A stretch of 27,862 nucleotides of DNA from the IMG/VR virus record IMGVR_UViG_3300047322_000155, positions 1 through 27,862 of that record; one strand, 5' to 3'. Positions 21,398 to 23,595 of this stretch are shown here, piece by piece. This DNA is from a virus. How positions within the stretch are numbered: position 1 is the first letter of the stretch; each line of letters begins with the position of its first letter. A program made the position numbers and the translations under genes. The notes under the pieces were generated by a model. That model was not told where the DNA came from. It did not search any database and saw only the letters and a list, made by a program, of their open reading frames with translations.

Positions 21398-21912
21398 GCC
21401 GCCACCTGGCTAATAGCCACGGAGAACGGGTTAATCTTCCCGTCACGGACACGGCGCGCGGCCCTCCACTTGCGGGATCGTTTGGTCGCGGCTACGGCTG
21501 TCGGCTTGCGAGCATCAGGACCAGCACCGATTACCCACACCGCAGCAAGATTTCCCGTCGCCGCCTCGTGAATCCACTCGCCCACGCGAAATTTAGATCC
21601 ACGGGAATTGCACAGAACCTTGTACGTCCAGCCACGCGACGAACCGATACGCTTGGCGAGCTGATTCACCGTGAGACCGCCAACGCTGCAAAGTGCAGAC
21701 TCAATGGCGGCGCAAATAACGGAATATCCAACGCGGCCCGCATGCCCCCGATGCCGCTTGCTGACGATGCCAAGAGCTATCGCATGGTTCTTGGCGCCGC
21801 CGTATGTCCTACCCGGCAACTCCGCGCGCACGCGCAACTTGATCGACTCTTTTCCCGCGTAGATGGCGCGTAGCTTCGCATTTTCGTTTTCATCCCACGA
21901 TTTGCCGCCCAT
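21394..21912 (-). CDS. SANT/Myb-like helix-turn-helix DNA-binding protein
   Basis: The protein is 172 residues from the ATG at 21912, which overlaps the previous stop as TGATG; GGAGG lies seven bases upstream. A GTG one codon earlier is too close to the ribosome site. Residues 1-50, GGKSWDENENAKLRAIYAGK with LPGRTYGGAKNHAIALGI, fit the W-x-x-x-E-x-x-L...LPGRT-x-x-A-x-x-x-A-x-x-LG pattern of phage SANT/Myb-like domains. A second helix-turn-helix is likely at LTVNQLAKRIGSSRGWTYKV. The C-terminal 40 residues are basic. It may be a regulator or a replication accessory factor. Confidence 0.75.
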   Translation of the reverse strand: MGGKSWDENENAKLRAIYAGKESIKLRVRAELPGRTYGGAKNHAIALGIVSKRHRGHAGRVGYSVICAAIESALCSVGGLTVNQLAKRIGSSRGWTYKVLCNSRGSKFRVGEWIHEAATGNLAAVWVIGAGPDARKPTAVAATKRSRKWRAARRVRDGKINPFSVAISQVAA

Positions 21913-22376
21913 CACTTCACCTCCACGATGTCAATGCCATGCACGACCTTCATCAGGTGGCGCTTGAGTTCATACATCGGCGTCAACATGCCCTTCACGT
22001 CCTCGACGATCCGATCACCGGCCGCATTGCGATAAACGAAGTCAGCGACGTACCGGCGCGCGCGACGCTTCTTGCCGGCCACCACCGCCGCGGGCACCAC
22101 GTCAAACGGAACCTGAATCTGCAGTTCGCTGATCTGCCCGGCGCGCTGCATCTGCGCAAGAACCTCGTAGCGCGCCGCCTCGCGGGCGCTATCGAACGTG
22201 ATTCCGTCGACCACCGTTTTGGTGTTGCCGTACTTCCCACGCGCCGCCGGCTCAGCCATGACGCTAGAAAGCTCAGCAGCGGCCCGCGCGATCGGATTTG
22301 ATCCCGAGACACGCGCGGTACCGAAGCGGCCGCCAGAGATCGCGCTTTCAGGGAAGCGAAGGGTGTTCTTGCTCAT
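21912..22376 (-). CDS. DUF1064 protein, nuclease-like (possible Holliday junction resolvase)
   Basis: The protein is 154 residues from the ATG at 22376, two bases past the replication gene's stop; a 75-residue upstream extension is a shadow of that gene. From residue 47 it reads GKYGNTKTVVDGITFDSARE, AARYEVLAQMQRAGQISELQ, RYVADFVY and RIVEDVKGMLT. This is the DUF1064 signature. Asp112, Glu125 and Lys128 (ADF...VEDVK), with Glu66, fit a PD-(D/E)xK-type nuclease site. Phages often encode a resolvase such as RusA in this position after the replication gene, so a branch-cutting role is plausible. The family is firm, the activity inferred. Confidence 0.88.
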   Translation of the reverse strand: MSKNTLRFPESAISGGRFGTARVSGSNPIARAAAELSSVMAEPAARGKYGNTKTVVDGITFDSAREAARYEVLAQMQRAGQISELQIQVPFDVVPAAVVAGKKRRARRYVADFVYRNAAGDRIVEDVKGMLTPMYELKRHLMKVVHGIDIVEVK

Positions 22377-22378
22377 GA

Positions 22379-23329
22379 TCAGAAGTCCGCAGGCAGGAGG
22401 CCATCGCCGAGCGTCGCGACAACCTGGTTGAACCAACGCTCGCCGCTCGTCTTTGCGTGGCGCAAGATGTGATCGATCCACGGACCACGCCCCGCGACCT
22501 TCGCAATGCGCAGCAGGTACATCGGCGTCGGCTCGTCTTTGTGGCGCGCAACGCCTAGCTCTGCGCCCTTCGCATTGATGCCCGCGTCGCCTTCCCACCA
22601 ACTGCCCGCTACCGGAACACCAGCGACAGCTTGCGCGCCGCCCAGAGCCTTCTCGTTGCGAACCCAGTTACGCCACGTCGCATCCCAATCGGTCTTCAGC
22701 CCATCCTTGCCGGCCTTCGCAATCCAGTAGTCCTTGAACGACGCCGCGACCTTGCGAATGTGCTCAGGCGTCCACGTCGGTTGCTCTGCAGCAGCCCAGA
22801 CTCCCAGCGCTTTTGTCAGAACCCAGTCTTTCGGCAAGCGGGTACCGCGCGCAGCCGACGGCGGAGCCGTTGGCGAAGAAGAAATGACGGTTCCTGATGG
22901 TTCATTACGTTTACTGACGTTTCCGTGGTCCGTTTTCGGACCTCTTACCTGCCGTTTTTGGACCTCTTTGCCGCCGTTTTCGGACCTGTTATCCGGTGAA
23001 ATTGGACCGGGTCCGTTTTCGGACGTGGTCCGTTTTTGGGCCTCTTTAACAGGTCCGTTTTTTCCGACGATGATCCGGTACACAACGACTTGCCCGGTGC
23101 TGCCGCAGCGTTTTCCACTGTCCTCAATGAATCCCCATTCCTTCAGGCGCTTGATATTCACCTTGACGGTTTTCGGGTCCTGAGAAGTGGCTTCGGCGAT
23201 ATACGCGATCGACGGGAACGCAAGGAACTCCTTGCCATCCGCGCAATTGGCGATGACGGTGAGCACGAATTTCGCGCTGGAGTTAGGTAGGGACTGCTTG
23301 AGAGCCCATGTGATCGCCTCAACGCTCAC
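22379..23329 (-). CDS. Replication initiation/organiser protein (lambda O-like layout)
   Basis: The protein is 316 residues from a GTG at 23329 that overlaps the previous stop as GTGA. Residues 1-90 are a winged helix: ITWALKQSLPNSSAKFVLTV, FLAFPSIAYIAEATSQDPKT and VKVNIKRLKEWGFIEDSGK. Residues about 87-135 form a polar linker with repeated E-V/A-QKR-x and ENG units, encoded by six iteron-like repeats. The C-terminal half contains WIAKAGKDGLKTDWDATWRN and WVRNE, a segment shared by many phage replication organisers and DnaT-like proteins. It probably binds the origin in its own gene and recruits the host helicase, since no helicase gene is visible here. Confidence 0.85.
   Translation of the reverse strand: MSVEAITWALKQSLPNSSAKFVLTVIANCADGKEFLAFPSIAYIAEATSQDPKTVKVNIKRLKEWGFIEDSGKRCGSTGQVVVYRIIVGKNGPVKEAQKRTTSENGPGPISPDNRSENGGKEVQKRQVRGPKTDHGNVSKRNEPSGTVISSSPTAPPSAARGTRLPKDWVLTKALGVWAAAEQPTWTPEHIRKVAASFKDYWIAKAGKDGLKTDWDATWRNWVRNEKALGGAQAVAGVPVAGSWWEGDAGINAKGAELGVARHKDEPTPMYLLRIAKVAGRGPWIDHILRHAKTSGERWFNQVVATLGDGLLPADF
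22927..23068 (-). repeat. Six iteron-like repeats, putative replication origin
   Basis: On the plus strand, copies of the consensus GGTCCGTTTTCGGACCTCTT have their CCGTTTT core at 22930, 22952, 22974, 23013, 23030 and 23055. The first three are spaced exactly 22 bases, about two helical turns. The best copy contains the dyad GGTCCG-TTTT-CGGACC. They lie in the linker-coding part of the replication gene, as the lambda origin lies in gene O. Confidence 0.75.
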
Positions 23330-23595
23330 GCAGTCACCTGTCCGTCGAACGTCAGCCGATAGTGGACGCCGTGCCCGCGGATCTTCATCTGGACGATGTA
23401 GCCCTCCCGCTCAAGCTCACCGACGAACTTGCGCACAGCCGACTCGCTCATGCCGCACATGGCCGCGAGCTTCTGCACCGACATGCGCCGCTCACCCGTG
23501 TTGAAATCCGCCTCGCGGTACAGCGTGATCAGCGTGAATTTCTTCAGCGCAGGCATATCGACGCCCCACACGAGGTTTTCGTGTTTGATGCTCAT
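23326..23595 (-). CDS. Small winged-helix DNA-binding protein
   Basis: The protein is 89 residues from the ATG at 23595, with GGAGG eight bases upstream and an ATGA overlap with the small membrane peptide gene. MPALKKFTLITLYREADFNT, then RRMSVQKLAAMCGMSESAVR and KFVGELEREGYIVQMKI, reads as a complete winged helix: helix-turn-helix SVQKLAAMCGMSESAVRKFV, then a GY-V wing. It precedes the larger replication protein with a GTGA overlap. It may be an initiator partner or a regulator of replication. No other domain. Confidence 0.78.
   Translation of the reverse strand: MSIKHENLVWGVDMPALKKFTLITLYREADFNTGERRMSVQKLAAMCGMSESAVRKFVGELEREGYIVQMKIRGHGVHYRLTFDGQVTA

Follow-up and report, generated by a model that had tools for sequence, protein, structure and literature searches.

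The window, which is the whole of a 27,862-base virus record (a 27.9-kb virus contig), contains on its minus strand an O-like replication initiator gene that carries two arrays of repeats within its coding sequence. The protein matches HTH_36 in Pfam (5.5e-8) and the PHROG families phrog_11896 (3.6e-38), phrog_1032 (3.1e-28), and the O-like phrog_391 (1.2e-12); NCBIfam gave no match, and none was found among solved structures searched by sequence. The AlphaFold model consists, in order, of a winged helix (residues 1-90, pLDDT at least 90 nearly throughout), a disordered linker (pLDDT below 50 in most of 91-152, the low stretches being 91-111, 113-121, and 123-152), a helical domain at about 161-230, and a tail of lower confidence. 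When compared with structures, residues 1-90 matched many winged-helix DNA-binding proteins (Z 8-9.3). The features of the gene are as follows.

22379..23329, minus strand: O-like replication initiator gene, 316 aa, GTG start (Pfam and PHROG matches)
23060..23329, minus strand: N-terminal winged-helix domain, residues 1-90, presumed iteron reader (AlphaFold and fold matches)
23052..23070, minus strand: half iteron, right arm AAAACGGACC only (repeat search)
23027..23045, minus strand: iteron (repeat search, consensus scan)
23010..23028, minus strand: iteron (repeat search, consensus scan)
22993..23011, minus strand: degenerate iteron GGTCCAATTTCACCGG, right arm degenerate (in step with the others)
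22971..22989, minus strand: iteron (repeat search, consensus scan)
22949..22967, minus strand: iteron (repeat search, consensus scan)
22927..22945, minus strand: iteron, the best copy, AGAGGTCCGAAAACGGACC, with a perfect dyad (repeat search, consensus scan)
22915..22922, minus strand: box 1, AAACGTCA, one mismatch to AACCRTCA, its start 23 nt past that of the last iteron
22905..22912, minus strand: box 2, AAACGTAA, two mismatches (box scan)
22895..22902, minus strand: box 3, AACCATCA, exact (box scan)
22885..22892, minus strand: box 4, AACCGTCA, exact (box scan)
22874..22923, no strand assigned: the 50 nt of lowest stability in the gene, a candidate DNA unwinding element (stability profile)
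22640..22849, minus strand: DnaT-like C-terminal domain, residues 161-230 (model; PF17948 in family members)

The tail of the protein, residues 231-316 (22382-22639, minus strand; WWEGDAGINAKG..GRGPWIDHIL), resembles the tails of L005 and L328/L329. These have a different middle domain, and the tail would be a third exchangeable module. Directly upstream of the initiator, 23326-23595 (minus strand) encodes an 89-aa stand-alone winged-helix protein that is similar to O-like N-domains (phrog_391, 1.6e-7). The same gene is present in L004, L005, L006, L007-L011, L012, L013, L015, and L299. It is possible that this protein is a competitor or regulator at the iterons.

The iteron array

The iteron unit on the gene strand (minus) is AGAGGTCCRAAAACGGACC. 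From the half copy onward the steps are 25, 17, 17, 22, 22, and 22. The dyad GGTCCG-AAAA-CGGACC is perfect at 22927-22942 and imperfect in the remaining copies. Tandem Repeats Finder (TRF) reports 22930-22995 with a period of 22 and a score of 90, the highest in the record, and the five matches to at least 15 of the 19 consensus letters across all 27,862 bases are all within the array.

The original prediction, made from the letters of the window, was of six iterons at 22927-23068, with cores at 22930, 22952, 22974, 23013, 23030, and 23055. These positions stand, as do the exact 22-base spacing of the first three copies, recovered by both repeat search and TRF, and the GGTCCG/CGGACC dyad in the best copies; the count does not, as the site at 22993-23011 was missed and there are seven. 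The earlier 39-base gap is 22 + 17 because a degenerate copy sits in it. A stricter scan, at 14 of 19 consensus letters, recovers five of the seven copies and merges these two steps into 39. The slot of the degenerate copy is also occupied in L004 (gene nt 319). The repeats were also said to encode the linker between the winged helix and the C-terminal part, as in lambda O, and residues 91-152 are indeed disordered in the model.

Selection on the iteron block and its counterparts in relatives

Is the repetition a property of the DNA or of the peptide? A repetitive, flexible linker (QKR, SENGP) might have been selected as protein, in keeping with the disorder of the linker in the model and with the in-frame repeats of phiV10, L124, and L125. 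The window gene has 54 near-identical pairs of 12-mers (at most one mismatch, within 150 nt). Synonymous-codon shuffles, which preserve the protein and the codon usage, had a mean of 1.3 pairs and a maximum of 12, and none of 2000 reached 54. The pair distances fall in all frames (14, 19, and 21 by remainder modulo 3), and none of the iteron steps is a multiple of 3. Among 31 relatives, several of which are near-duplicates of one another, the observed value was unreached by 200 shuffles each in 30, and in L126 it was reached by 2 of 200. The repeats of L123 (phiV10), L124, L125, and L126 are all or nearly all in frame, and because of this frame gives no support for DNA-level selection in these four.

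Codon positions were compared with those of the closest relative, L004, the protein of which is 76% identical without gaps. Counted by codon position (1/2/3), the N-domain has 23/18/50 substitutions, the iteron block 11/13/10, the 42 nt after it 2/3/0, the 30 nt beyond 3/0/0, the DnaT-like domain 1/1/28, and the tail 9/6/33. Third positions in the iteron block are thus no freer than first and second positions, and the pattern of the linker differs from that of the C-terminal part (Fisher p 6e-8) and from that of the N-domain (0.002). Within the linker, DNA identity exceeds protein identity (0.77 versus 0.53, then 0.88 versus 0.64), and the reverse is true of the DnaT-like domain (DNA 0.86 versus protein 0.96). 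The same tendency, less sharp, is present in three other pairs: third-position changes for L007/L006, L012/L013, and L012/L015 are 19/33, 10/27, and 11/24 in nt 241-480, and 28/30, 12/16, and 11/14 in nt 481-690.

The iteron block is maintained as DNA, not as peptide, because codon positions 1 and 2 vary as often as position 3 within the iterons. This is the outcome anticipated for relatives, in which the repeats were to be kept as DNA while the linker peptide drifted: the iteron block has 11/13/10 and the C-terminal domain 1/1/28. Conservation as peptide only, with free third positions, is contradicted by these counts and by steps of which none is divisible by 3. QKR and ENG, the peptide repeats that had been regarded as a side effect, are present and arise from one DNA unit translated in different frames, this unit encoding QKR, SENG, and PKT. 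For the window, selection of the repeats as protein is rejected by the frame, shuffle, and codon-position tests, and we give that explanation almost no credence.

The loci of relatives were collected by protein similarity. Twenty non-redundant genes of the same N-domain type (26 examined) have 58 gaps of 50 nt or less, of which 29 are 17, 13 are 22, and only four are multiples of 3; these genes are kin and the counts are not independent events. The steps in L004 are 17, 17, 22, 22, and 22. The relatives hold the array, but with another iteron sequence. The recognition helix is QDPKT in the window only and [QM][DN]RKT in the other 19 of the 20, and the iterons are AGGTCC in the window (G) and mainly AGTnCC (T) in those 19. 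Covariation of helix and iteron is not proven by the window because QDPKT is a single case. In the broader comparison, nine of nine GGGEM-type initiators have AAGGGTGC iterons and five of seven SIALMTLAWK-type initiators have CCCC[C/T]GCA iterons, the types having been set by our own patterns, which leave 28 of 48 genes unclassified. This comparison goes in the same direction and points to an iteron sequence that varies with the type of N-terminal domain.

The box array beside the iterons

On the gene strand, four boxes in 10-nt steps, in frames 2, 0, 1, and 2, follow directly 3' of the last iteron. Apart from 22885-22922, neither strand of the record has a cluster of three such boxes (one mismatch, 36 nt). 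The 20 genes used for counting boxes were picked by their N-domain, not by boxes. At least two boxes (one mismatch) lie within 75 nt past the last iteron in 13 of them, the window included, and the 20 genes have 33 boxes in total, against a synonymous-shuffle mean of 12.1 and a maximum of 20. In all 13 box-bearing genes of the N-domain type of the window, the start of the first box is at +23, counted from that of the last iteron. By the same measure, there are none in L006, L007, L119, L088, L120, L328, and L329; the last iteron of L006 was mis-set by the script, yet no box is present elsewhere in that gene, and the position in L088 was set by hand.

The boxes might have no role of their own, being half or degenerate iterons or what repeat expansion left behind. 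The box GGAAC resembles the right iteron arm CGGAAC of the QDRKT relatives, and at the position of the boxes L007, L119, L120, L328, and L329 have GGAACAG- or GGAACTAAA-type repeats instead. However, identical AACC[A/G]TCA boxes follow unrelated iterons (AAAGGGTGC, ACCCCCGCA, ACGGGTGAC) in 10-12-nt steps, and the +23 spacing is the same in all 13 box-bearing genes of this N-domain type. We consider this reading of the boxes unlikely.

A scan of 2.9 million viral contigs was made with DNA alone, no protein being used, for AACCRTCA twice followed by AACCRT with 1-4 nt between. It found at least 120 triple-box stretches, with 80 loci kept, of which 71 are non-redundant among the matches listed. 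In 60 of these 71, the longest ORF has the array on its coding strand. Among the 71 listed ORFs, 48 match phrog_270 (replication initiation), 46 match phrog_678 (O-like), 44 match HTH_36 of Pfam, and four match a RepC N-terminal model; an N-domain model built here (alignment A2) finds 45. Of the 26 that it misses, about ten look like initiator fragments, in most cases truncated by the end of the contig; the others are of low complexity or unrelated, a division that is our reading of the first 50 residues.

The 45 listed initiators contain 146 exact boxes, with 30, 81, and 35 in the three frames. One frame, with the reading EPS, is favoured, and 65 of the 146 are in the other two. The box steps in these 45 are 11 (49), 12 (26), and 10 (21), which is partly imposed by the scan pattern. 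Among the 54 listed coding-strand ORFs of at least 180 aa, a few of which are not initiators, 51 have a 9-mer with three or more copies (one mismatch) in the 170 nt that precede the boxes, and these 9-mers are of many different sequences. By raw count, of 208 steps of 60 nt or less in the 54 ORFs, 74 are 22, 39 are 17, 22 are 21, and 21 are 23; 154 are not multiples of 3. In one box-bearing initiator, L342, the linker contains GAACCATCA-like copies in 15-nt steps, five in a row, more than in the others.

An independent set was made up of 399 bacterial genomes from the order of one Pandoraea relative. The triple box is present in six and the reversed pattern in one. Five of the six are inside an O-like initiator (model E below 1e-20), and one of these five, L454, is the Pandoraea relative itself, which fed the model through its near-identical copy L012. 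In the sixth (L458, a bacterial genome) the ORF has 77 aa and peptide repeats of NRSGKPT type, and it may be what is left of an initiator. Exact triple boxes are specific but not common, because they occur in six of the 399 genomes and in initiators in five of those six.

The box array lies within 22874-22923, with a stability of -1.329 per step (record mean -1.559, sd 0.087), which is 11th in the list of the weakest segments of the record. In L119, L007, L012, L005, and L018, too, the weakest segment and the second array overlap; in lambda the weakest segment follows directly on the iterons, and in L004 it is not at the boxes. In 14 further relatives it is at or beyond the last iteron in six, including L314 where it starts 4 nt before the last iteron, and within the iteron block in eight. 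GC skew was considered as a sign of an origin and set aside; it rises from about -0.1 to roughly 0 over 23-24.5 kb, with nothing clear at the site.

Alternatively, the repeats may be operators for the initiator itself or for the small upstream winged-helix protein, with the origin elsewhere. Dyads would suit a dimeric regulator, and a stand-alone winged-helix gene is directly upstream in the window and in relatives. Against this, the iteron sites are deep in the coding sequence and adjoin the weakest DNA of the gene, and they have a conserved step grammar and companion boxes that are found mostly in initiator genes among the matches listed. We regard operators as improbable here.

The C-terminal domain and the proposed origin

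The C-terminal domain is judged DnaT-like by its family. Seven of 22 family members match PF17948 (DnaT), the best at 6e-5, although the domain of the window itself does not match at E 1. Alignment by hhalign to the DnaT domain of phiV10 gave E 1.4e-4 and a probability of 53. Three helices are predicted in the domain. DnaT is, according to its structural description (PMC4132743), a three-helix bundle with an F-x-x-Y-W set that binds single-stranded DNA, F124-Y127-W128, and F198-Y201-W202 of the window has the same spacing as that set. Fold searches with the domain alone had no significant match, and DnaT was not among the structures listed, so they are no argument against DnaT. The domain profile had two weak and unconvincing matches among solved structures.

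No P-like or other helicase loader was recognised in the nine ORFs around the gene, in a record that may be incomplete. The gene after the initiator, 21912-22601 (minus strand), belongs to the DUF1064/Holliday-junction resolvase family and is not a helicase loader. The genes next to nine box-bearing initiators are DnaC-like (L338), P-like (L346, L362), DnaB-like (L393, L400), a helicase-loader match (L410, 7.4e-7), of unknown family (L341, L347), or without a match (L401). What, then, would read the boxes? A single type of loader is rejected, as the neighbouring loader genes differ among these nine. So is the DnaT-like domain alone, as boxes also occur with other C-terminal domains; for the same reasons the boxes are not a mark of that domain. 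What is left as a candidate is either a single-strand-binding, conserved face of the winged helix, in the manner of plasmid Rep proteins at their DUE repeats, or a host protein.

Taken together, the locus is very probably a lambda-type replication origin inside the initiator gene, and the prediction of a likely origin placed as lambda's is in gene O is supported as far as sequence can tell. The N-terminal winged helix would bind the seven iteron sites, in steps of 17 and 22 bp, and build an O-some. The adjoining weak segment of 50 bp would then melt, the coding-strand AACC[A/G]TCA boxes would be held as a single strand, and the C-terminal DnaT-like domain would help to recruit the DnaB helicase. 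The boxes may be a single-strand capture site, an assignment that we make tentatively, at slightly less than even chances.

With similar reserve, we suggest that the in-gene origins of O-like phages carry a two-layer code. The specificity layer would be the iterons, with a sequence that tracks the winged helix and with steps of 17 and 22. The common layer would be three to five boxes in 10-12-nt steps just after the last iteron, constant whatever the iteron sequence, C-terminal domain, or helicase-loading gene, and acting as the single-strand capture site, the counterpart of DnaA-trios and of the 13-mers in plasmid DNA unwinding elements (DUE). An origin inside the initiator gene is of an already known, classical kind. 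What a specialist would find surprising is a box array common to differing iteron specificities; it looks unreported among the openly licensed PMC papers searched, where no earlier account of boxes or short repeats in DnaT-like initiator genes was found. If the two-layer code is true, the origins of many uncultured phages could be read from the box pattern and the iteron steps. The holder of the melted strand would also be directly testable, with boxes that stay constant while iterons, C-terminal domains, and loader genes vary.

To our knowledge, lambda is nearly the only worked phage model of an origin inside the initiator gene. In lambda and its Stx-phage variants, as in the window, the iterons lie within the initiator gene, in the stretch that joins the DNA-binding N-terminal domain to the C-terminal part, and in lambda a weak, A-rich segment of the coding strand adjoins the last iteron. 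The origin in gene O has four 18-bp iterons and a 38-bp AT-rich part (PMC3349717). According to PMC7466680, the lambda-type iteron is an imperfect inverted repeat around AAAA, ATCCCTCAAAACGAGGGA, like the inverted repeat around an A tract in the window, and lambda O also binds single-stranded DNA. The lambda steps are 20, 24, and 23 against 17 and 22 here; the iteron sequence and C-terminal domain are different, the window has no recognised P-like gene adjoining, and lambda has no AACCRTCA box in the stretch examined, whereas the window has boxes.

Escherichia phage phiV10 p43 (HTH_36 and DnaT) also combines a winged helix and a DnaT domain with linker repeats, of CCCAAAAACGGGA type. Its DnaT match is strong (PF17948, 1e-15), while that of the window is not detected singly, and its repeats are in frame, with steps of 45, 18, 18, 24, and 24, unlike those of the window. 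The closest named phage relative is gp11 of Burkholderia phage Bcep176, which is DnaT-like at its C-terminus by motif. Its iterons are of ACAGTCCCAAAAACGG type in steps of 34, 17, 22, 22, and 22, with arms that differ from those of the window, and it has GGAACAGTAG repeats where the window has AACCRTCA boxes.

Two plasmid systems are also comparable. In the repABC plasmid p42d of Rhizobium etli, silent changes in an A+T-rich part of repC abolish replication (PMC3155836). That origin, like the one proposed here, is within an initiator gene, but it belongs to a plasmid and has no iterons reported, and the window is a phage with iterons. Plasmid Rep proteins (RK2 TrfA and others) hold one strand of the DUE repeats as single-stranded DNA (PMC4081077). 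Iteron plasmids resemble the window in having double-stranded iterons beside an array of short repeats; they have an AT-rich origin with 13-mers, as opposed to an 8-base box within coding sequence that is only moderately rich in AT (58%).

DnaT-like genes were also considered as a set. Of 285 ORFs, 54 lacked the anchor motif and were set aside together with redundant copies and with genes whose 5' part was too short, which left 108 non-redundant genes. In these, short tandem repeats with a period of 5-13 occupy the 120 nt that precede the DnaT-like domain. At least 59 of 60 synonymous shuffles were outscored in 65 of the 108 genes when only periods not divisible by 3 were counted, and in 82 when any period was allowed. 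A repeat score of 10 was reached by 78 of the 108, against one of 108 for an N-terminal control stretch. The strand that carries the repeats is rich in A (47%) and poor in T (9%), and AACC recurs in many of the genes (AACCAAT, 7-nt steps). Part of these repeats may be iterons with short steps. The window is a weak member of the set, with a lag of 10 and a score of 8 that was reached by one of 60 shuffles. Genes with an MHYYxFxIGDY-type N-domain (L019-L022, L033, L050, L179, L202, L261, and others) have AACCAAT or AACCATT immediately ahead of the DnaT-like domain, repeated every 7 nt and out of frame; this N-domain is quite unlike that of the window.
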